Source of the DNA: Polynucleobacter alcilacus
GTDB lineage: Bacteria; Pseudomonadota; Gammaproteobacteria; Burkholderiales; Burkholderiaceae
Length of the DNA: 64,000 nt
Direction of reading: 5' to 3'
Assembly (NCBI RefSeq): GCF_018881545.1
Contig: NZ_JACVQD010000001.1
Location: 1,828,776-1,892,775 of the forward strand
Position numbers and translations under genes: made by a program. How positions within the stretch are numbered: the stretch's first letter is position 1; each line of letters starts with the position of its first letter. Positions 16,588-29,097 of the stretch are shown in pieces. Under the pieces are notes generated by a model. The model was not told the origin of the DNA, ran no database searches, and saw only the letters and a list, made by a program, of their open reading frames with translations.

Positions 16588-18111
16588 ATGAATTTATATT
16601 CGCTATTGGAAAAAGGTTTTCCAAAAGATAAAAAAGCTTGTGCATTAGAAACACATGATGGTTTGTATTATTCATGGAATGACCTTGAGCGTGCCACTGC
16701 GAAGATGGCTAACCTGCTCAAGAGTCTCCAGCTTCCAGCAGGCGCAAGGGTTGCAGTACAGGTTGAAAAATCTCCCGAAGCACTTTTTTTGTATCTGGCC
16801 ACGATTCGTGCTGGCTATGTGTATTTACCCCTCAATACCGCATATCAAGCCGCTGAGATTCAGTATTTTGTTGAGAATGCAGAGCCAGCCCTTGTGGTTT
16901 GCAGTAGTAAGAACTTCTCCTGGGTATCTCAGGTTGCATTTAAGGCTGGTACTAAACATGTCTTTACCTTAGACGAAGATCGTAAAGGCACTTTGCTTGA
17001 AAGAGCAGGGGGCCTCAGCGATCAGTTCAAGACTGTGCCAGCTAAAGATGATGACCTTGCGGCTATTCTGTACACCTCTGGCACTACTGGCCGCAGTAAG
17101 GGGGCGATGCTCACCCACAAAAACTTAGGTAGCAATGCGCAAGTGTTGCAACAGTTCTGGGGCTGGAAAAAAGGCGATGTGCTTTTACATGCTTTACCGA
17201 TCTTCCATGTACATGGATTATTTGTAGCAGCTCATGGCGCTTTGATCAATGGTAGTAAGATGATTTGGTTGCCACGCTTAGATGTTTCTCAATTGATTCA
17301 TCACATGCCACAGTCCACTGTGATGATGGGTGTTCCGACTTTCTATGTTCGCTTACTGGCGGATAAGGGATTTAATAAGAAGGTCGCTCGCAATATGCGC
17401 TTGTTTATTTCTGGTTCTGCACCATTGTTAACAGAGACATTTAATTCCTTTAAAGAAGTCATTGGTCAGCCAATACTTGAACGTTATGGCATGAGTGAGA
17501 CGGTGATGTTGGTTTCTAATCCCTATAACGGCAAGCGTGTTGGTGGATCTGTAGGTCTGCCATTGCCCGGCGTTAAAGTGCGCGTGGTTGATGAAAATAA
17601 TCAGCCCTGTGGTGTTGATGAAATTGGTAGCATTCAGGTTAAAGGCCCAAACATATTCCCAGGCTATTGGCGCATGCCCGAAAAGACTGCCGAAGAATTT
17701 ACCAAAGACGGTTGGTTCAAAACGGGTGACGTCGGTCGTTGGGGTGGCGATGCTAACGGTGGTAAAGCGCCTAAAGAGTATCTTTGCATTGTTGGCCGCA
17801 GTAAGGACTTAATTATTTCGGGTGGCTACAACGTATACCCAAAAGAAATTGAAGGCTTCATTGATGACATGGATGGCGTTGACGAGAGCGCGGTGATAGG
17901 CATCCCGCATCCAGACTTTGGTGAGTCGGTGATGGCGGTAGTGGTGCCTAAGGCTGGAGCAAAACTCAATGCAGAAGCAATGATTGCAACGTTGAAAACA
18001 CAAATTGCAAACTTTAAGATTCCAAAGCGCGTGGAGATTGTTGCTGATTTACCTCGCAACGCGATGGGTAAGGTGCAAAAGAATATCTTGCGTCAGCAAT
18101 ACACGAAGTAA
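16588..18111 (+). CDS. matB: Malonyl-CoA synthetase
   Basis: Acyl-adenylating enzyme (ANL superfamily) of 507 residues that ligates malonate to CoA with ATP. Motifs in order: P-loop-like YTSGTTGRSKGAMLTHKNL, LPIFHVHGLFV, ERYGMSETVM, FKTGDVG, hinge region GRSKDLIISGGYNVYPKEIE, and the C-terminal catalytic lysine in PRNAMGKVQKNILR. The HVHGL block is typical of MatB. Context with malonyl-CoA decarboxylase and a TTT receptor supports malonate as substrate, though methylmalonate is often also accepted. It is convergent with the TauE-type gene, with one base between stops. Confidence 0.92.
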   Translation: MNLYSLLEKGFPKDKKACALETHDGLYYSWNDLERATAKMANLLKSLQLPAGARVAVQVEKSPEALFLYLATIRAGYVYLPLNTAYQAAEIQYFVENAEPALVVCSSKNFSWVSQVAFKAGTKHVFTLDEDRKGTLLERAGGLSDQFKTVPAKDDDLAAILYTSGTTGRSKGAMLTHKNLGSNAQVLQQFWGWKKGDVLLHALPIFHVHGLFVAAHGALINGSKMIWLPRLDVSQLIHHMPQSTVMMGVPTFYVRLLADKGFNKKVARNMRLFISGSAPLLTETFNSFKEVIGQPILERYGMSETVMLVSNPYNGKRVGGSVGLPLPGVKVRVVDENNQPCGVDEIGSIQVKGPNIFPGYWRMPEKTAEEFTKDGWFKTGDVGRWGGDANGGKAPKEYLCIVGRSKDLIISGGYNVYPKEIEGFIDDMDGVDESAVIGIPHPDFGESVMAVVVPKAGAKLNAEAMIATLKTQIANFKIPKRVEIVADLPRNAMGKVQKNILRQQYTK

Positions 18112-19814: not shown

Positions 19815-21959
19815 TTAGTTGAGAGTGTATTTTAGTGTTACAAAAACTGACCTAGGTTCGCTGGGATAGTAAAAGTGAGCACCGTTAAATGAACTTACTC
19901 CCCCATAGGTTGAGTATTGCGCATTGCCTACGTTTTTTACTATGAATCGGGCTTCCATTGCCTGGAACTTATAAGAGGTAAAAATATCTCCCACTACGTA
20001 GCCTGGCATAACGGGTGCCGCACTGTAATTATTTGGCCCAGTATCGTAATGTTGATTACTGACATAGTTAACAACTCCACCAACAGTCAAACCGCTAGTA
20101 ATCATGTAGTTCGCCCTAGCATTTAGTAGGGTATCCGGAACTATTGGGATAGCATTTCCAGCATATGGCCCATTTGCATAGTATGACTTCTGGTATTTTC
20201 CGCCTACTCCTATATTGAGAGATTGGGTAATGTTGGAGGCAACGTCAAATAAAATACCAGCTCGATTAGTCTGATAAATAGAGTTGTAGTTGTAGCCCGT
20301 GCTTGGGTTGTAGCTAATCTCATTTTGAGTCATGGATTTAAAAATCGACGAAGTAATTTTTGAATTCCAAATCGACCAGTTACCACCTATTTCATACGTT
20401 TGGGTAGTTTGAGGCTGCAAAATTCCATTAAATACGGTTTTACCAACTCCATTGGCGTCATAGCCAAACCCCCAATATTCATCGATGTTTGGGAACCGAA
20501 AGGACTGGTTCCACTTCACATACATCCGCTGGCCGGGTGAGTAATTAGCGTTTAAGGCAATGTCTCCTGCGTTAGCAGCGTACTGCTGAGTATTACTAAC
20601 TGCTCCATTGGCAGCAGTAATGGAGGTGTTAGTGGTAGAGGCTTGTTGTACCTGGCGTCGAAAGCCTCCGCTTGCCTCAAAAATTTTCCCTAAAGGAATT
20701 TTTTGCATTGCAAAGACAGAATTATTAATTTGAGTTGCATTTTGAGAATTATGGTTAAGGTTGTTGTAATACGATCCGTAGGGATTGTTATTAATATCAT
20801 TCTGATTGGCGCTAATGATTCCTTGTGACAGCGGGCTGTAGCCATCGCTACCCGCTTGATTTGCTTTGGAAAAGTCATATCCAACTATTGTGGTACCTAT
20901 TCCATCAAAGTTTGCTTTTAGTCTTGGGGATGCGGCCAGTTGCCAGCCTTGTAGTTTGGAATTCATTGCACTTCCTGCGTATCCATAGTAGTTGAAATTA
21001 CCTGGATCCAATGAAGTGAAATAATCTGCCTGCGGAGTGTAATAGAAAGATGTTTTATTGTTGTAAGAAGTATCAAGTTCAAAAACATAAGATTCGTTTA
21101 AGGTCTTAGTCAATCCCTGCCTGAAACCAGAATTATTTGTGGTCAAGTTATTGCCTGCATCCTGAGGGCGGACTGATAGCGGATTACCGGATCCGACTAG
21201 GCCCACTACTGGGCTAGCTATTTGTGAGTTTGTATAGCCGTAGTAGGCATCCACATATACACGGTCATTTCCTCCTAAATTTTGCGAAATTTTTGCGTCA
21301 ACAGAATAAGCATTTGCCGCGGTGTTTGGTCTCCATCCATTGGTATTTGAGGTATTGGCACTTATTTGATAAGTAGTTTGATCCACCGTATTTCTGAAGA
21401 TCGCATTATTGATTGATGTCCCCCAAGTACCATAGGTTGTTGAGGCTTGGTTAAAGCTTTTCTTGCCGCCATTTGTGATGATATTAATAACACCACCAAC
21501 AGCACCATTACCATACTGCACGCTTGCGCCACCTTGAAGAATTTCTATACGCTCAATGGAGTCAAGGGGAATAGATTCCCAATCGACACTCCCAGAATCA
21601 ATTGGATTAATCCTGATGCCATCAACTAACACCACTGTTGTGCTATTACCGGTTGGTCCATAGCCACCCATATCAACGGAAGCATCTAAATTAAGTGCGC
21701 TTGAATTTAATCCAGTAACACGAAGACCGCCAATTTGGGATAAGACTTGAGGGATGGTATTGGAGCTGGAGTTCTCAATCTCATCTCGTGTAATGACTTT
21801 GACATTCGCAGGAACCTCGTTAAGGTTCTCTTCAAAACGCGAACCAGTTACAACGACAGTTGATGGGGAGTTTTGCGCTAACACTAAAAATGGGTTGCTG
21901 ATAACGAAAATTGCACTGCAAATAAGGGCAAGCTTTTTCGTGTTGAACTGCTGCTTCAT
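19815..21959 (-). CDS. btuB: TonB-dependent receptor, probable cobalamin receptor BtuB
   Basis: Outer-membrane active transporter of 714 residues. A signal peptide (residues 1-28, ending FLVLAQ) is followed by a TonB-box-like STVVVTG and the plug domain (about 40-160: ENLNEVPANVKVITRDEIEN, VLVDGIRI, RIEILQGGASVQYGNGAVGG VINII pattern). The rest is rich in aromatic and Asn/Gly residues typical of a 22-strand barrel. A cobalamin riboswitch in its leader strongly suggests vitamin B12 or a corrinoid as substrate. Oddly, the last residue is asparagine (TLKYTLN) rather than the usual terminal Phe or Trp of Bam-assembled barrels. Confidence 0.88.
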   Translation of the reverse strand: MKQQFNTKKLALICSAIFVISNPFLVLAQNSPSTVVVTGSRFEENLNEVPANVKVITRDEIENSSSNTIPQVLSQIGGLRVTGLNSSALNLDASVDMGGYGPTGNSTTVVLVDGIRINPIDSGSVDWESIPLDSIERIEILQGGASVQYGNGAVGGVINIITNGGKKSFNQASTTYGTWGTSINNAIFRNTVDQTTYQISANTSNTNGWRPNTAANAYSVDAKISQNLGGNDRVYVDAYYGYTNSQIASPVVGLVGSGNPLSVRPQDAGNNLTTNNSGFRQGLTKTLNESYVFELDTSYNNKTSFYYTPQADYFTSLDPGNFNYYGYAGSAMNSKLQGWQLAASPRLKANFDGIGTTIVGYDFSKANQAGSDGYSPLSQGIISANQNDINNNPYGSYYNNLNHNSQNATQINNSVFAMQKIPLGKIFEASGGFRRQVQQASTTNTSITAANGAVSNTQQYAANAGDIALNANYSPGQRMYVKWNQSFRFPNIDEYWGFGYDANGVGKTVFNGILQPQTTQTYEIGGNWSIWNSKITSSIFKSMTQNEISYNPSTGYNYNSIYQTNRAGILFDVASNITQSLNIGVGGKYQKSYYANGPYAGNAIPIVPDTLLNARANYMITSGLTVGGVVNYVSNQHYDTGPNNYSAAPVMPGYVVGDIFTSYKFQAMEARFIVKNVGNAQYSTYGGVSSFNGAHFYYPSEPRSVFVTLKYTLN

Positions 21960-22104
21960 TTAAAACTTTCTGTTGTCGAATGCCTAGCTCACTTCCCCGT
22001 AAGCTGGGTCGAACAGAATTCCCGTGCAGGAGTTCAGGCGTCAATTTGGCGTCGGATCGATAGATAGGGCGCTGTCATCGGCGCGCGAAGGTCCCCGTCC
22101 GCGA

Positions 22105-22275
22105 AATTCCACCTGTCTTGGCCGGTATCCGGGCTAGTAAATCTCAGAATCTGGCCTTCCCATGCGATTGACGCGCACAGTGGCTTTGTCAGATTCCTGA
22201 CACTTTTACCTTGATAAAAGTGCATTTACTTACCGTTGCGGGGGCAGCACACGTTTAGTGTTTCCCGTTTAACTT
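22105..22275 (-). promoter_or_regulatory. Cobalamin riboswitch
   Basis: Read on the minus strand, the leader of the TonB receptor shows the adenosylcobalamin aptamer blocks in order: gttaaacgggaa, gtgctgcccccgcaacggtaag, a peripheral stem, gccactgtg, the core atgggaagg, and the closing agcccggataccggccaaga. This is the family arrangement for class I cobalamin riboswitches, which repress B12 uptake or synthesis genes when the coenzyme is abundant. About 145 nt separate it from the ATG; a hairpin with a ggggaa loop near 21983-22003 may belong to the expression platform. Ends are approximate. Confidence 0.93.
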
Positions 22276-22293
22276 TATTGCACTGCAATAAAG
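22273..22293. promoter_or_regulatory. Near-perfect palindrome at the btuB/FNR-like divergent promoter
   Basis: Arms ctttattgca (22273-22282) and tgcaataaag (22284-22293) are perfect complements around one central base. A one-base loop is poor for an RNA hairpin but typical of a dimeric protein's operator. It lies at the outer edge of the riboswitch, between the divergent btuB and FNR-like genes. Confidence 0.45.
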
Positions 22294-22399
22294 CACCACT
22301 ACCTGCCAATTCTAACTTAGGTCATCGGAGATTCCTACTTTCTGCACTAATAAAGCCTACAATACGGGGTCTAGGATGAAGGATTCATGGCCGTATTAG
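22294..22399. other. Divergent promoter stretch between btuB leader and FNR-like gene
   Basis: Just over 100 bases with no gene. It should contain the start points for the riboswitch-controlled receptor (minus) and the FNR-like gene (plus). On the minus strand ttagaa and tttatt are 17 bases apart and could be a weak -35/-10 pair. A direct repeat of gtattagat spans the start of the regulator gene. Confidence 0.35.
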
Positions 22400-23017
22400 A
22401 TGACTGTATTAGATAAGCACCCCGAAAAAAACCTGATTCGTCTTCAGTTGAGCCAAAACTCAGTCCTAAAAAGCTTAGATTCAGAGACGATGGCCGATTT
22501 AGAGCGTCATTTAGAGATCTCAGACCTCAAAAAGTCCGAAATTTTGCTGCACCAAGGTGACCATCAAATGGAGCAGTACTTTGTCTTGGATGGCATCCTC
22601 AAGCGCATTGTTTCTAGTGCTGATGCAAAAGAGATGATTTTGCGGTTTGCAATCGAAAAAGATATTGAAACAAGCTATGCTGCCTGGCGTCTGAAGACCG
22701 CCGCACCTTATAGCATCGCCTGTGTTACCAAGTCCCGGGTAGCCCGCATGCCCCTGAAGAAATGGGCTGAATTCCTGGAGCTACACAAGCCCTTAAAGGA
22801 AAGTTTTGAGTTTGAGGTGATGCGTCTGATGAGTGAGATCATGGCCCATACCATCACTTTGCACATGCTTGATGCCCCAGGACGAGTAGAGCGCTTTCTC
22901 CGAAAATACGAGGCTTTATTTGAGCTGCTGCCTAAAAAGGAGCTTGCCGCTTATCTCAATCTCTCCCCAGAGACCTTGAGCCGCCTCAAAACAAAGCATA
23001 AAGAGCTTTTTGTCTAA
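22400..23017 (+). CDS. CRP/FNR family transcriptional regulator
   Basis: A 205-residue regulator with a cyclic-nucleotide-type beta-roll (about residues 20-125), a dimerisation helix and a C-terminal helix-turn-helix (181-199). The recognition helix reads SPETLSRLK: E191, S194 and R195 match the E-x-x-S-R contacts of FNR, not the R-E-x-x-x-R pattern of CRP, so a TTGA-N6-TCAA type site is expected. The N-terminal cysteine cluster of FNR is absent (only C108), so an Fe-S oxygen sensor is unlikely. It lies upstream of oxc with such a box in between and is probably the local regulator. Confidence 0.88.
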   Translation: MTVLDKHPEKNLIRLQLSQNSVLKSLDSETMADLERHLEISDLKKSEILLHQGDHQMEQYFVLDGILKRIVSSADAKEMILRFAIEKDIETSYAAWRLKTAAPYSIACVTKSRVARMPLKKWAEFLELHKPLKESFEFEVMRLMSEIMAHTITLHMLDAPGRVERFLRKYEALFELLPKKELAAYLNLSPETLSRLKTKHKELFV

Positions 23018-23026
23018 GCTAACCGC

Positions 23027-23040
23027 CCTGTAATTACAGG
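23027..23040. repeat. 14-bp perfect palindrome after the FNR-like gene
   Basis: The sequence cctgtaattacagg is fully self-complementary, beginning 9 bases after the regulator's stop codon. It has no loop and no following T-run, so an intrinsic terminator is unlikely. It may be a second operator in the oxc promoter region. Confidence 0.4.
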
Positions 23041-23053
23041 ATTTAGGGGGAAA

Positions 23054-23067
23054 TTGACCGAAGTCAA
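23054..23067. promoter_or_regulatory. FNR-type box upstream of oxc
   Basis: TTGAC-CGAA-GTCAA is a perfect inverted repeat with the 5-4-5 geometry of FNR/DNR sites (consensus TTGAT-N4-ATCAA). It ends 151 bases before the oxc ATG and starts 37 bases after the regulator gene. It is nested in a larger repeat formed by flanking ggggg and ccccc tracts. The regulator's E-x-x-S-R recognition helix fits such a site. Confidence 0.6.
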
Positions 23068-23218
23068 TGATGAACCCCCACCCCAAGCCTAATATTCACC
23101 TCTGCCTAAGCGGGGCATTGAAACCCGTTGTGCGATTAATAACTTAATTGGAGACATTAGCGAAAGCTAAAATTGCAAGTTCTCAACAAGCGCTCTTGTA
23201 ATTCATATAAAAATTTCT

Positions 23219-24928
23219 ATGACAACTGATAACCAAAACACACAATTAACTGACGGCTTTCATCTCGTCATTGATGCTTTAAAGGCGAATGACTTAAATA
23301 CGATTTTCGGTCTGGTTGGAATTCCAATTACTGACCTCTGTCGTTTGGCTCAAGCTGAGGGTTTACGTTTTATTGGTTTCCGTCATGAGCAGCATGCAGG
23401 TAATGCTGCAGCCATTGCTGGATATATGACTCAAAAGCCTGGTATTTGCATGACTGTTTCTGCGCCGGGTTTCTTAAACGGCTTAACAGCGCTTGCCAAC
23501 GCAACCGTCAATTGTTTCCCGATGATTTTGATTTCTGGCTCCAGTGAGCGTGAAATCGTTGACTTGCAGCAGGGTGATTACGAAGAGATGGATCAGCTCA
23601 ATGCAGCCAAGCCGTATTGCAAAGCTGCATACCGCATTAATCATATTGAGGATATCGGCATCGGTTTTGCTCGCGCAATTCGTGCGGCTGTTTCTGGCCG
23701 CCCAGGTGGTGTGTATTTGGATTTACCAGCACAGTTGCTGGCACAGACCATGCCTGTTGAAGAAGCCAAAAAATCCATCTTCAAAGTGATCGATCCAGTT
23801 CCACGTCAGATCCCAGCGGCTGATGCAGTTGAGCGGGCATTGAATGTGTTGAAAGGTGCTAAGCGTCCCTTGATTCTCTTGGGTAAAGGCGCTGCCTATG
23901 CACAAGCAGATAAAGAGGTTCGCGACCTGATTGAGAAATCCGGTATTCCTTACTTGCCGATGTCGATGGCAAAAGGTTTGTTACCTGATAACCATCCACA
24001 ATCTGTTTCTGCAGCCCGTTCATTTGTTTTGGCTGAGGCCGATGCAGTCATGTTGGTTGGTGCGCGTTTAAATTGGTTGCTTGCACACGGTAAGGGTAAG
24101 ACTTGGGGTAAAGATCCTAAGAAATTTATTCAGATCGATATTCAGGCAAATGAAGTTGATAGCAACGTCCAAATTGATGCCCCATTGATTGGCGATATTG
24201 GCTCATGTGTTGGCGAGCTCTTAAAGGGCATTGCAGCTGTTCCTAAACCCAGCGCTGAGTGGATTAATGCCATCAATGAAAAGAAAGATAAGAACTTAGC
24301 CAAGATGGCAGAGACATTGGCTAAAGATGTAAGCCCAATGAACTTCCATGGCGCATTACGTGCGATTCGTGATGTGATCAAAAAGAATCCCGATGTGAAC
24401 TTGGTAAACGAGGGTGCAAACACACTCGACTTTTGCCGTGCGATTGTAGATATGTACAAGCCGCGTAAGCGCTTTGACTCCGGTACTTGGGGAATCATGG
24501 GTATCGGTATGGGTTACGCCATTGGCGCTTCTGTGACTAGCGGATTGCCAACGGTTGCAGTAGAGGGTGATAGTGCATTCGGCTTCAGCGGCATGGAGTT
24601 AGAGACCATTTGCCGTTACAACTTACCAATTACGGCTGTGGTATTCAATAACAACGGCGTTTATCGCGGCACTGATGTGAATCCTACTGGTGGCGCTGAT
24701 ATGGCTCCAACCGTATTCATTAAAGACGCACGTTACGACAAGATGATGGAAGCGTTTGGTGGAGTAGGTTATTACGTAACTACCCCAGCAGAATTAGAGG
24801 CAGCGTTAACAGAAGCGATTGCTGCCGGTAAACCAGCCCTCATCAATGCCGTTATTGATGAGACTGCAGGTACTGAGAGTGGGCGTTTAACGAATTTGAA
24901 CCCATCCTCAGCGGCTACTAAGAAATAA
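23219..24928 (+). CDS. oxc: Oxalyl-CoA decarboxylase
   Basis: Thiamine diphosphate enzyme converting oxalyl-CoA to formyl-CoA and CO2. The 569-residue protein has the three-domain ThDP fold: the PYR domain with catalytic glutamate E57 in [19 protein letters not shown], a middle domain (about 190-320), and the PP domain with the cofactor motif [19 protein letters not shown] followed by FNNNGVYRG. The sequence closely follows E. coli YfdU and Oxalobacter Oxc. The downstream formyl-CoA transferase completes the oxalate cycle: CoA transfer to oxalate, decarboxylation, release of formate. Confidence 0.96.
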
Positions 24929-25028
24929 GATTCACAATCCGATTTTGTAGTAATAAATAGTTAATATTTTTAGATTAAATTAAGTAACAAATAAGAAACA
25001 AACAAGAAACACTCAAGGAGAAACAAAC

Positions 25029-26279
25029 ATGACTAAACCATTAGACGGTATTCGTATTATTGACTTCACCCACGTACAAGCAGGTCCTGCATGTACTCAG
25101 CTTTTGGCTTGGTATGGTGCTGACGTTATTAAAGTAGAGCGTCCAGGTTCTGGCGACGTCACCCGCAGCCAATTACGCGATATTCCAGGTGCAGATGCGC
25201 TGTACTTCACTATGCTCAACGGTAATAAGCGTTCTTTGACACTCGACACCAAGACTCAAGAAGGTAAGGAAGTATTGGAAAAGATGATCAAGACTTCTGA
25301 TGTCATGGTTGAGAACTTCGGTCCTGGCGCTTTGGATCGTATGGGTTTTTCTTGGGCACGTATTCAAGAGTTGAACCCAAAAATGATTTTGGCTTCTGTT
25401 AAAGGCTTTAGCGATGGCCACTCATACGAAGATTTGAAAGTGTATGAGAACGTCGCTCAGTGTGCTGGAGGCGCAGCTTCTACTACTGGTTTCTGGGATG
25501 GTCCTCCTACAGTTTCTGCCGCTGCTTTGGGCGACTCTAATACGGGTATGCACTTGGCGATTGGTATTTTGACTGCCTTGATGCAGCGTGATAAAACTGG
25601 CCGTGGTCAAAAAGTGTCTTGCTCAATGCAAGATGCTGTATTGAACTTGTGCCGTGTGAAGTTACGCGATCAACAACGTTTGGACAAAATTGGCTATTTG
25701 GAAGAGTATCCACAGTATCCACACGGTTCATTCACTGACGTCGTTCCACGCGGCGGTAACGCTGGCGGCGGCGGTCAGCCAGGCTGGGTATTGAAGTGTA
25801 AGGGCTGGGAAACCGATCCAAACGCATATATCTACTTCACTATTCAAGGTCATGCTTGGGAGCCGATTACTAAGGCCATCGGCAAACCAGAATGGGCAAC
25901 TGACCCTGCTTATATGACTGCTGAAGCTCGTCAAGACAAGATTTTTGATATCTTCGCAACCATTGAAGATTGGCTCAAAGACAAGACTAAATATGAAGCT
26001 GTGGACATTCTCCGCAAGTTTGATATTCCGTGCGCGCCAGTTTTCTCCATGAAAGAATTGGCTGCTTCACCTGACCTACGTAAGAGTGGCTCAATCGTTG
26101 AAGTGGATCACAAAGTACGCGGTAAGTATTTGACTATTGGTAGCCCAATCAAGTTCTCTGATTTAGAAATCGAAGTGAAGCCATCTCCAGTATTAGGTGA
26201 GCACACTGATGAAGTGTTGGCTGATCTTGGCTATAGCGCTGATGACATCACTAAGTTGCACGCAGCAAAAGCAGTTTAA
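25029..26279 (+). CDS. frc: Formyl-CoA:oxalate CoA-transferase (first copy)
   Basis: Class III CoA-transferase exchanging CoA between formyl-CoA and oxalate. The 416-residue protein begins [20 protein letters not shown]. The catalytic aspartate D169 falls in [15 protein letters not shown], and the mobile glycine loop [12 protein letters not shown] is intact. Residue 48 is glutamine, as in E. coli YfdW, rather than the tryptophan of Oxalobacter Frc. A strong ribosome-binding site (aaggag) precedes the ATG. It follows oxc by about 100 nt and ends at a good intrinsic terminator, so oxc-frc form one unit. Confidence 0.95.
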
Positions 26280-26305
26280 TAACGATTACAATCGGTATTT
26301 ATTGG

Positions 26306-26331
26306 AAGGCGCTCCTCGTGGGCGCCTTTTT
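26306..26331 (+). terminator. Intrinsic terminator after frc
   Basis: Arms aaggcgc (26306-26312) and gcgcctt (26322-26328) form a GC-rich hairpin running into a T-tract. It lies about 25 nt after the frc stop and separates oxc-frc from the PAS gene. Confidence 0.85.
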
Positions 26332-26349
26332 ATTCTATAGACAGACCCT

Positions 26350-26778
26350 ATGAAGACAAGCGTTGATTTACATCAGTTGGTAGAGTGTGTTGGAGATGCC
26401 ATCATCGTAGTTGATGCTCATGAAAAAATTGTAATGTGGAATCCTGCGGCTACTCGTATCTTTGGGTATTCCGAGGCAGAAGCCTTGGGAAATACTTTAG
26501 ATTTGATTGTGCCCGAGCGCCAACGCCATCGACATAATGAGGGCTGCCGTAAGTCAATGGAAACTGGTATCACGCGTTATGGCACATCATTATTAAAAGT
26601 GCCAGCTCTCCATAAGAACGGAAGCATGCTTTCAATCGCTTTTACGGTAGGTATGCTGTTTGATGAAAATCAGAAGGTCAATGGGATTGTGGCAACCATA
26701 CGGGATGAGACCGAGCGTTTTGCCGAAGAAAGAGCCCTTAAAAAGCGCCTTTCTGATCTTGAAAGTCCCCAGCCCTAG
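26350..26778 (+). CDS. Single PAS-domain protein
   Basis: A 142-residue protein made almost entirely of one PAS domain (about residues 8-122) with a short charged helical tail (ETERFAEERALKKRL) like the linker that normally joins PAS to an output domain. No kinase, cyclase or DNA-binding domain follows. PERQRHRHNEG resembles the FixL/Dos segment carrying the heme-binding histidine, with H62 at the position of the FixL proximal histidine, but the distal arginine is not conserved (leucine). It lies between two formyl-CoA transferase genes. Heme or flavin binding is a guess; a signalling or protein-interaction role is likely. Confidence 0.8.
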   Translation: MKTSVDLHQLVECVGDAIIVVDAHEKIVMWNPAATRIFGYSEAEALGNTLDLIVPERQRHRHNEGCRKSMETGITRYGTSLLKVPALHKNGSMLSIAFTVGMLFDENQKVNGIVATIRDETERFAEERALKKRLSDLESPQP

Positions 26779-26823
26779 CCACATATAGCCTTTAGTACGA
26801 CCAATAAAGGCTGAGTAGGGATT

Positions 26824-26844
26824 TATGCCCAATAATTGGGCATA
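26824..26844. promoter_or_regulatory. Palindrome upstream of the second frc gene
   Basis: Arms tatgcccaat (26824-26833) and attgggcata (26835-26844) are perfect complements around a single base. It lies 71 nt before the second frc start and 45 nt after the PAS gene. There is no T-run, and the centre is too tight for a good RNA loop, so an operator is more likely than a terminator. Confidence 0.45.
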
Positions 26845-26915
26845 TTTGATCTACCCTGATTTCTCGCTGGTAAAATTATTACAAATCAATATTTTATTTT
26901 ATTAGGACTTAAATC

Positions 26916-28163
26916 ATGGCAAAAGCTCTAGAAGGGGTCAAAATCCTCGACTTTACGCACGTTCAATCTGGACCGACTTGTACTCAGTTACTCGCTTGGT
27001 TTGGTGCAGATGTGATTAAAGTAGAAAAATCGGGCGAGGGTGATGCAACCCGCGGTCAATTGCGCGACATCCCAGATGCAGACAGTTTGTATTTCACGAT
27101 GCTCAATCACAACAAACGTTCCATCACCGTTAATACAAAAACGCAAAAGGGTAAAGAAATCCTTGAACGCTTGATTAAAGAGTGTGACGTGTTGGTAGAA
27201 AACTTTGCACCAGGCGCATTGGATCGTATGGGTTTTTCTTGGGAGCGGATTCAAGAACTGAACCCAATGATGATTCTGGCTTCAGTCAAAGGATTTGGTC
27301 CTGGACCCTATGAGGATTGCAAGGTGTATGAAAATGTCGCGCAATGCGCAGGGGGTTCTGCATCCACTACAGGTTTTGATGATGGTCCTCCGCTGGTAAC
27401 TGGTGCGCAAATTGGTGATAGTGGTACCGGTTTGCATTTAGCACTCGGCATCGTGACAGCACTCTATCAACGTACGCATTCTGGCCGTGGTCAAAAGGTC
27501 TTAGCAGCGATGCAAGATTCAGTCCTCAACCTCTGCCGTGTGAAGCTACGTGACCAGCAGCGCCTAGAGCGCAATGGCATCATGAAAGAGTACCCACAGT
27601 ATCCCAATGGTGAGTTTGGAGACTCAGTACCGCGCGCCGGCAATGCTTCTGGTGGTGGTCAGCCCGGTTGGATTTTAAAGTGCAAAAACTGGGAGAAGGA
27701 TCCTAACTCCTACATCTATGTAGTAGTACAAGCCCCCGTATGGGAAGCCATTTGTAAAGTTATCGGTCGTGAAGACTGGATTACCGATGTGCGTTTTGCC
27801 TCCCCAATGGCTCGCTTGCCCCATTTAATGGAAATCTTTGGCGAGATTGAAAAGTGGACCATGACGATGAGTAAGTTTGAAGTCATGGATATATTAAATA
27901 AATACGACGTGCCTTGTGGCCCAATTCTATCCATGAAAGAAATCGCTGAAGAACCTTCATTGCGTGCTACTGGAACTGTGGTTGAAGTTGATCACCCGAT
28001 TCGTGGCAAGTACCTGACTGTTGGTAACCCTATCAAGATGTCGGATAGCCCAACTACAGTGACTCGTTCACCTTTGCTTGGTGAGCATACCAATGAGATA
28101 TTGAGTGAACTTGGCTATACCAATGATGAGTTGAATCAATTGCATCACGATAAGGTGATCTAA
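26916..28163 (+). CDS. frc: Formyl-CoA transferase-like class III CoA-transferase (second copy)
   Basis: Paralogue of the upstream frc, 415 residues, alike along the whole length. The catalytic aspartate is D168 ([16 protein letters not shown]), shifted by a one-residue deletion in the GFGPGPYED loop. Residue 48 is again glutamine. Differences at sensitive places are the glycine loop (GNASGGGQ, one Gly to Ser) and GFDDGPP where the first copy and YfdW have GFWDGPP. The stop is one base from the ATG of the formyltransferase gene, so the pair is probably co-translated. Oxalate may not be its acceptor; another carboxylate or formate release is possible. Confidence 0.92.
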
Positions 28164-28164
28164 G

Positions 28165-29097
28165 ATGCGGGTAGCGTTGATTGGAAGTGCGGACTTTGGT
28201 AAAGCGACTTTAGAAGCTTTTTTAGATCGTGGCGATGAAGTCGTTGCAGTCTTCTGTCCACCAGATAATCCTAAGTCAACTAAACCTGAAGTCCTTAAGG
28301 AGGCAGCGCTGGCGAGGGGTTTAAGCCCTCTGCAGTTTGCCTCCCTGAAGGGTCCAGAGGCTGCCCAGGCCATGATCGATAGCCAAGCGGATATATGTGT
28401 CATGGCTTATGTGCTGCAATTTGTGCCTCAAGAACTTTGCAAGATTCCGAAACACGGTACGATTCAATACCATCCCTCCCTATTACCGAAATATCGTGGT
28501 CCTAGTGCGATTAACTGGGCAATTGCATTGGGTGAAGATAAAACTGGCCTGACAATCTTCCGTCCATCGGATGGTTTAGATGAGGGCGAAGTGATATTGC
28601 AAAAAGAAGTAGCGATTAGTCCTGATGACACTCTAGGTAAGGTCTACTTTGATTATCTTTTTCCAGTTGGCGTTAAAGCCCTGCTAGAGGCTGCTGACTC
28701 AGTAGTGGCAGGAAAACATCAAGAACTCGTTCAAGACGAATCGAAAGCCAACTATGAGGGTTGGTTTGATGCTAACGCTGCACAGATTCATTGGGCAACT
28801 CACATTAATCAAATCTATAACCTGATTCGCGCTTGCAATCCTGCGCCTGGCGCATGGACCAAGTTTGGCGAGCAAAAGGTGCAGATCTACGATTGCCATA
28901 AGCATGTCACTGCCACCTTTAGCGCCGTTAAAGGTAAGCCCGGCGAAGTGACGCAAATTACCTTAGATTCATTCTTCATTACCTGCCACGGTGGGCAGAT
29001 TGAAGTCCTCAAAGCGAAGGGCACAGCGGGGAAGGTGAGCGGTGCTGAGCTGGCGAAAGAGTTAAACCTACAAGTAGGACAGTTCTTCTCACTATAG
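28165..29097 (+). CDS. Standalone formyltransferase, 10-formyl-THF dehydrogenase hydrolase-domain type
   Basis: A 310-residue protein with the formyltransferase catalytic fold (about residues 1-200) and the Fmt C-terminal domain (about 205-305). The core HPSLLPKYRGPSAINWAI and DGLDEGEVILQKE, plus YEGWFDANAAQIHW and PGAWTKFGEQK, resemble the N-terminal hydrolase domain of animal 10-formyltetrahydrofolate dehydrogenase (ALDH1L1) more than Met-tRNA formyltransferase. H103 and D139 fit the catalytic pair; the Asn usual in Fmt and PurN is Gln (Q101), as ALDH1L1 also lacks Asn. No aldehyde dehydrogenase domain is fused. One base separates it from frc copy 2. It may hydrolyse formyl-THF or transfer formyl between CoA and folate. 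Confidence 0.85.
   Translation: MRVALIGSADFGKATLEAFLDRGDEVVAVFCPPDNPKSTKPEVLKEAALARGLSPLQFASLKGPEAAQAMIDSQADICVMAYVLQFVPQELCKIPKHGTIQYHPSLLPKYRGPSAINWAIALGEDKTGLTIFRPSDGLDEGEVILQKEVAISPDDTLGKVYFDYLFPVGVKALLEAADSVVAGKHQELVQDESKANYEGWFDANAAQIHWATHINQIYNLIRACNPAPGAWTKFGEQKVQIYDCHKHVTATFSAVKGKPGEVTQITLDSFFITCHGGQIEVLKAKGTAGKVSGAELAKELNLQVGQFFSL

Follow-up and report, generated by a model that had tools for sequence, protein, structure and literature searches.

A stand-alone formyltransferase in Polynucleobacter oxalate gene clusters, a candidate formyl-CoA:tetrahydrofolate formyltransferase

Oxalate breakdown usually ends in formate, which must be re-activated with ATP by formate-tetrahydrofolate ligase (Fhs) before it can be used in biosynthesis. 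The described pathway, known from Oxalobacter formigenes and as YfdU/YfdW of E. coli, pairs oxalyl-CoA decarboxylase (Oxc) with formyl-CoA:oxalate CoA-transferase (Frc). Here we analyze a 64,000-nucleotide stretch of Polynucleobacter alcilacus (NCBI RefSeq assembly GCF_018881545.1, contig NZ_JACVQD010000001.1, positions 1,828,776 to 1,892,775; hereafter the window) from a genome of 2.03 Mb. Its oxalate cluster encodes one Oxc and two Frc proteins that score as members of these families, but it adds a stand-alone formyltransferase (FT), and in other families the clusters also contain fhs, with a common operator.

The closest described relatives of FT move formyl groups between folate and thiols. 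The hydrolase domain of 10-formyltetrahydrofolate dehydrogenase (FDH, ALDH1L1) is reported to transfer the formyl group of 10-formyltetrahydrofolate (10-formyl-THF) to a phosphopantetheine thiol by means of His, Ser and Asp residues (PMC6802093). For the N-terminal domain of HypX, the same source proposes, without direct experiment, formyl movement between 10-formyl-THF and coenzyme A (CoA), like the role we propose for FT. HypX differs from FT in its fused enoyl-CoA-hydratase-like domain and in its role, which is to supply CO for hydrogenase. We consider it moderately probable that FT exchanges formyl between formyl-CoA and N10 of tetrahydrofolate (THF), in either direction, as a predicted activity. 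The one-carbon reading of the cluster as a whole is well supported by gene context.

The cluster and its formyltransferase

All genes listed by a first-pass annotation of the window are present on the plus strand between 22400 and 29097. The features are as follows.

22400..23017, plus strand: CRP/FNR-superfamily regulator (Pfam cNMP_binding, 32 bits; ETLSR recognition helix without conserved Cys)
23054..23067, no strand assigned: palindromic operator TTGACCGAAGTCAA, 5' of oxc (TTGAC-N4-GTCAA, conserved in loci with the regulator)
23219..24928, plus strand: oxc, oxalyl-CoA decarboxylase, dependent on thiamine diphosphate (ThDP) (TIGR03254, 987 bits, cut-off 739)
25029..26279, plus strand: frc1, formyl-CoA:oxalate CoA-transferase of the PAS-linked lineage (TIGR03253, 726 bits, cut-off 504)
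26350..26778, plus strand: single-PAS-domain protein, the usual neighbour of frc1-type genes (domain search and neighbourhood counts)
26916..28163, plus strand: frc2, second formyl-CoA:oxalate CoA-transferase (TIGR03253, 728 bits, cut-off 504)
28165..29097, plus strand: FT, stand-alone formyltransferase related to the FDH (ALDH1L1) hydrolase domain and proposed formyl-CoA/THF formyltransferase (domains, motif and tree)

Oxc and both Frc proteins exceed the curated family cut-offs, and the locus thus qualifies as an oxalyl-CoA decarboxylase/formyl-CoA:oxalate CoA-transferase pathway. The frc1 and frc2 proteins are 65% identical. A single base lies between the stop codon of frc2 and the ATG of FT. 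In 19 genomes with plus-strand pairs taken from match listings, the frc-FT gap is 1 base in 11, and the rest range from an overlap of 1 base up to 120 bases. FT is up to 93% identical to orthologs of named Polynucleobacter.

The first-pass annotation described FT as a formyltransferase without an aldehyde dehydrogenase domain, and the domain search agrees: the 310 aa protein consists of Formyl_trans_N and Formyl_trans_C, with no further Pfam domain. Its best relatives of solved structure are FDH hydrolase domains (1.3e-48, versus 2.6e-35 for the best methionyl-tRNA formyltransferase, Fmt), and the same holds for an alphaproteobacterial ortholog. FT falls below the cut-offs of both the Fmt model TIGR00460 (157.9 bits, cut-off 201.5) and the PurU model TIGR00655 (19.5 bits, cut-off 285.95). 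In a 34-row tree, made from the proteins of the motif alignment after removal of PurN, PurU, L003 and L147 (L-numbers denote fetched or named loci, and G-numbers surveyed genomes), 21 FT and 3 FDH domains are separated from 10 Fmt with 100/100 support. FT residues His103, Ser105 and Asp139 are invariant in 31 of 31 FT sequences and correspond to His106/Ser108/Asp142 of FDH (numbering from PMC6802093); the HPSLLP motif is also common to both. The Asn that Fmt carries two residues before the catalytic His (N-x-H) occurs in 10 of 11 Fmt-type rows, the motif not being located in the eleventh. It is replaced by Gln or Cys in all 21 FT, and by Ile in FDH.

By these sequence comparisons, FT is a relative of the FDH hydrolase domain and not a methionyl-tRNA formyltransferase. 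It has the His/Ser/Asp hydrolase domain of FDH but lacks the carrier and aldehyde dehydrogenase domains, and it differs further in its situation within oxalate clusters. The C-terminal enoyl-CoA-hydratase-like domain of HypX is likewise absent. An AlphaFold model of FT (mean pLDDT 90.6) has the common fold of the superfamily, which does not decide function. A housekeeping Fmt role for FT was considered and rejected, as the genome carries its own Fmt (264.6 bits). The same genome encodes PurU (TIGR00655, 328 bits, cut-off 286) and one further Formyl_trans-type gene.

Companions of the formyltransferase in other genomes

Two apparent FT matches (G339 and G601) proved, judged by eye, to be Fmt-like genes beside deformylase-like genes, so in wide samples we counted as orthologs only matches at E 1e-60 or better; association tests treat genomes as independent. 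Across 121 relatives, FT occurs in 68 (E 1e-50), oxc in 66 (1e-150) and frc in 70 (1e-120). The 73 genomes of the genus include 55 with both FT and oxc, 3 with FT alone and 3 with oxc alone; completeness is below 80% for one of the FT-only and one of the oxc-only genomes, and a further FT-only match is partial. An order-level sample of 48 genomes (G073-G120) gives 8 with both, 2 with FT only, none with oxc only and 38 with neither (p 1.2e-7). All 8 oxc genomes here carry FT. FT was found in 10, oxc in 30 and both in 9 of 398 evenly sampled phylum genomes (p 2.2e-10), and among 274 class genomes, FT orthologs besides that of the window occur in 2. From this distribution, we view FT as an optional companion of oxc. 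No FT relatives were found in viral contigs, and a plasmid search at E 1e-40 returned one record.

Outside the genus, we compared 17 cases (16 genomes and one plasmid). FT has an adjacent frc in 14, an oxc or lyase-like gene within 10 kb in 13, and fhs within 12 kb in 10 (11 counting a fragment in G119). Where frc is not adjacent, FT stands beside oxc (G113), beside fhs only (G392) or alone (G473). The FT of G473 (L193:9376-10290) is flanked by genes that, judged by eye, resemble accA and tilS. Among 80 named loci, mostly from Polynucleobacter and close kin and many on short contigs, frc lies within 1 kb of FT in 67, oxc or the lyase gene within 8 kb in 61, and neither in 4. The common set in distant Burkholderiales comprises formate dehydrogenase alpha (that of L039 passes TIGR01591), fhs, tctCBA, the regulator, oxc, frc and FT. 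Plasmid CP031587 of an alphaproteobacterial Paracoccaceae strain carries oxc-frc-FT-fhs; a stress-protein gene and tct genes come next, and farther along lie a ketopantoate-reductase gene and glyA. Methylobacterium segetis has oxlT-frc-FT. A PanE/ApbA-like gene adjoins FT in L042. A malate-thiokinase/serine-cycle role for sucCD-like neighbours was dropped, since the beta subunits of these proteins score above the cut-off for succinate-CoA ligase and below the one for malate-CoA ligase.

A lyase-like ThDP enzyme replaces oxc beside frc-FT in the order- or class-level genomes G107, G119, G590 and G706 (the last two inspected around FT only) and in the named locus L123. The first-pass annotation had held that its one-carbon idea would fail if the frc-FT pair were widespread without oxc. 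In our samples it is not, and the four frc-FT genomes without oxc all have this enzyme. The best PDB matches of the one protein searched, from L042 (G107), are Oxc and 2-hydroxyacyl-CoA lyase entries. For the proteins of L042, L049, L190 and L191, the top NCBIfam model is NF004516, named acetolactate synthase (443-491 bits, under the cut-off of 587), and they also fall short of the 2-hydroxyacyl-CoA lyase model NF058623 (356-359 bits, cut-off 600). The enzyme may represent another type of oxalyl-CoA decarboxylase, or it may be a true lyase; 2-hydroxyacyl-CoA lyases are reported to release formyl-CoA (PMC7176365). Genes for it stand in for oxc next to frc, in most cases together with FT, at L042:8580-10301 and in L041, L123, L190, L191 and L049.

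The association with fhs depends on the group. In the order sample, fhs is present in 10 of 10 FT genomes (one by fragments at contig ends) versus 13 of 38 without FT (p 1.7e-4), or in 9 of 10 when the fragmentary case is discounted (p 0.003). Beyond that sample, the FT genomes G166, G214, G392, G590 and G706 carry fhs and G473 does not. Within the genus, only 10 of the 58 FT-bearing genomes have fhs and 48 do not, so the suggested co-occurrence of frc-FT with fhs holds outside Polynucleobacter and breaks down inside it. Two genus genomes with oxc and without FT (G003 and G025) have fhs; in the third (G021, 79% complete) none was found. This thinly hints at replacement. In the phylum sample, fhs is present in 7 of the 21 oxc genomes without FT and absent from 14.

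The second CoA-transferase had been singled out as a partner of the formyltransferase, and this idea did not hold up. Frc2 scores as an ordinary Frc. Genes of its type lie beside oxc without FT in 9 of the 11 phylum-level loci examined, and in phylum-level genomes it is usually a gene of this type that adjoins oxc. Our tree of 54 Frc proteins, from 39 loci that we picked, shows 7 switches in the state of lying next to FT (at least 6 switches are forced by well-supported branches, and bootstraps give 6-8). No member of the frc1 lineage (17 rows) adjoins FT. Given the repeated switches and the frc1/frc2 pattern, frc2 is not an enzyme special to FT, and the tree indicates that FT joined, or was lost beside, different frc genes several times. 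Nor is the PAS protein an orphan, as first described: frc1-type genes adjoin its gene in 12 of the 17 loci fetched from genomes and at 40 of its 54 copies in named loci, and they do so in phylum-level genomes without FT as well. The single-PAS protein is possibly a sensor of the Frc step.

Formyl exchange between CoA and folate

Judged by family membership alone, Frc would load oxalate with CoA and Oxc would decarboxylate oxalyl-CoA to formyl-CoA; in some other genomes, the source of formyl-CoA is probably the 2-hydroxyacyl-CoA-lyase-like enzyme. FT would then pass the formyl group to THF with its activation energy kept. In the reverse direction, Fhs and FT would together make formyl-CoA from formate and ATP and so start or refill the Frc/Oxc cycle. 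FT keeps the His/Ser/Asp residues, has no carrier domain and mostly sits among neighbours expected to make formyl-CoA, and CoA ends in the same arm as the FDH carrier; the simplest reading is therefore formyl-CoA/THF exchange. The forward direction is energetically downhill, and a low formyl-CoA:CoA ratio would permit the reverse. We tentatively take net flow from formyl-CoA to 10-formyl-THF as the more likely direction, and think net flow from 10-formyl-THF to formyl-CoA rather unlikely. Genus genomes with FT and without fhs lean towards the forward direction, and operons with FT beside fhs lean towards FT and Fhs acting together.

The first-pass annotation had suggested a branch from oxalate breakdown into the folate one-carbon pool. 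That part of its reading gains from the kinship of FT with the FDH hydrolase domain, from the presence of fhs and formate dehydrogenase in the clusters of several families, and from the operator common to oxc and fhs. In its fullest form, which we believe and doubt in about equal measure, our proposal is that FT is the first formyl-CoA:tetrahydrofolate formyltransferase. It would act as an ATP-free, reversible valve between the folate pool and formyl-CoA derived from oxalate or 2-hydroxyacyl-CoA. Where fhs is clustered with it, Fhs and FT together would amount to an ATP-dependent formyl-CoA synthase able to start the Frc/Oxc cycle and to refill it. The hydrolase domain of animal FDH would be a relative, with CoA swapped for the tethered phosphopantetheine arm. 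In the open-access literature searched, we found no formyl-CoA:THF formyltransferase and no oxc-frc-FT cluster named.

Several observations weigh against this proposal. The formyl-CoA/THF activity, the substrate and the CoA binding of FT are putative, and each formyl-CoA that FT used would have to be replaced as CoA donor for oxalate. A fold search discriminates neither FT nor FDH from Fmt (Z scores are ~33 for Fmt, which shares the two-domain fold, ~31-32 for FDH and ~21 for HypX, which is 22% identical to FT over the structural alignment), and the sequence tree does not resolve FT as one group apart from FDH (38% of 200 bootstrap trees unite FT). Many genomes with oxc lack FT, including 21 of the 30 in the phylum sample. 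In G473, FT is 164 kb from oxc and has neither frc nor fhs as a detected neighbour; the genome as a whole lacks fhs. The formyl-CoA role of the lyase-like enzyme would have to hold for a protein whose best model is acetolactate synthase, below cut-off. The exact operator lies directly 5' of FT in none of 30 FT regions of loci with the regulator, FT being mostly a downstream gene. The genome of the window has no fhs but does encode a formate dehydrogenase homolog (68% identical to that of L039), so it can make do with plain formate release. Finally, oxalate is reportedly not assimilated by four of the described Polynucleobacter species (PMC5018217).

Other functions for FT must be weighed against the same evidence. 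Kinship with the FDH hydrolase domain, the closest family, would equally suit a 10-formyl-THF hydrolase that, like the isolated FDH domain or PurU, releases formate and THF and so balances the folate pool under formate stress. We find this improbable: FT lies directly beside fhs in several clusters, where hydrolysis would set up an ATP-wasting cycle, and the genome already has PurU. A hydrolase of formyl-CoA itself (EC 3.1.2.10) is kept as a rival because this activity is reported to have no known gene (PMC10192776), and such a gene-less activity on record, together with the placement of FT among enzymes expected to make formyl-CoA, speaks for it. Frc, however, already yields formate from formyl-CoA with the thioester saved, FT retains the residues used with folate across the superfamily, and the operator common with fhs would go unexplained; we rate this possibility marginally below the previous one.

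More doubtful still is the formylation of some other acceptor (an amine, a protein or a tRNA) from 10-formyl-THF. The fold of FT is that of Fmt and of sugar formyltransferases, and the C-terminal domain is present, but FT scores under the Fmt cut-off and has lost the Asn, the genome has both its own Fmt and the further Formyl_trans-type gene, and the neighbours of FT concern formyl-CoA. At the bottom of our ranking is the idea that FT merely rides along in a conserved neighbourhood and has nothing to do functionally with formyl-CoA. It draws on the many Oxc clusters without FT, and it fits poorly with the fact that FT has re-associated repeatedly, in at least two classes, with various Frc lineages and with both kinds of ThDP enzyme.

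If formyl-CoA/THF exchange is confirmed, a direct step from formyl-CoA to folate would save the ATP of Fhs, and reverse flow through FT would explain how the autocatalytic CoA cycle is primed. According to a review, Oxc, Frc and the antiporter were not enough for one engineered oxalate degrader, to which an oxalyl-CoA synthetase had to be added (PMC11045627). Synthetic assimilation of formate and formyl-CoA would likewise benefit from a formyl-CoA/folate valve. The oxalate genes of these freshwater bacteria travel with an uncharacterised enzyme that probably links oxalate breakdown to biosynthesis.

Regulator, operator and flanking genes

Members of the CRP/FNR superfamily share an E-x-x-S-R motif in the recognition helix, and in FNR, conserved cysteines hold a [4Fe-4S] cluster. 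The regulator, first described as FNR-type, does belong to this superfamily: it has the cNMP-binding fold, and the ETLSR recognition helix, which we take to be FNR-type, is present in 11 of 11 aligned regulators. No cysteine is conserved among the 11, and an oxygen-sensing Fe-S FNR is therefore rejected. The regulator lies near the cluster in many order-level loci and appears dedicated to the oxalate and formyl-CoA clusters of Burkholderiales.

What had been called an FNR-like box, TTGACCGAAGTCAA at 23054-23067, is the sole match to the box within the window. By itself this means little, because 30 of 100 shuffled sequences also contain one; the place of the box is, though, conserved in relatives. 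Among all 1024 five-base half-sites, TTGAC-N4-GTCAA ranks first in the 300-base upstream regions of cluster genes (32 of 72 loci, next best 5). This count takes all 73 loci of the series L035-L054, L107-L135, L186-L193 and L198-L213, with one exact duplicate removed and near-duplicates retained, and leaves out the close relatives L055-L106 and short loci. An earlier count (24 of 26 loci) used loci picked after the boxes had been seen and is not relied on. Of the 32 loci that hold the regulator, 30 have the exact box; of the 40 that lack the regulator, 2 do. The latter two come from G074 and G080, whose regulator sits in another fetched locus, and the two regulator loci without an exact box contain looser forms.

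Within regulator loci, the box precedes oxc in 21 of 25 cases, the lyase gene in 4 of 4, fhs in 5 of 8, tctC in 6 of 19, frc2-type genes in 2 of 28 and frc1 in 0 of 14. G113 has a looser box ~ 80 bases 5' of FT, and no box was found at the G473 FT locus (L193). Such conservation suggests that the regulator would control the gene set through TTGAC-N4-GTCAA. The genome of the window holds 5 exact sites versus 4 in a backward control, and no one-carbon gene was found near the two sites inspected besides that of oxc.

Upstream of the cluster, a cobalamin riboswitch (Rfam RF00174, 81.2 bits) at 22103-22315 on the minus strand sits between the oxalate regulator and a TonB-dependent receptor gene (19815-21959), 5' of the latter. 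A malonyl-CoA synthase gene (16588-18111; PRK07514, 845 bits) lies ~ 4 kb 5' of the cluster, and a homolog is also found near the cluster in L051 and L052.

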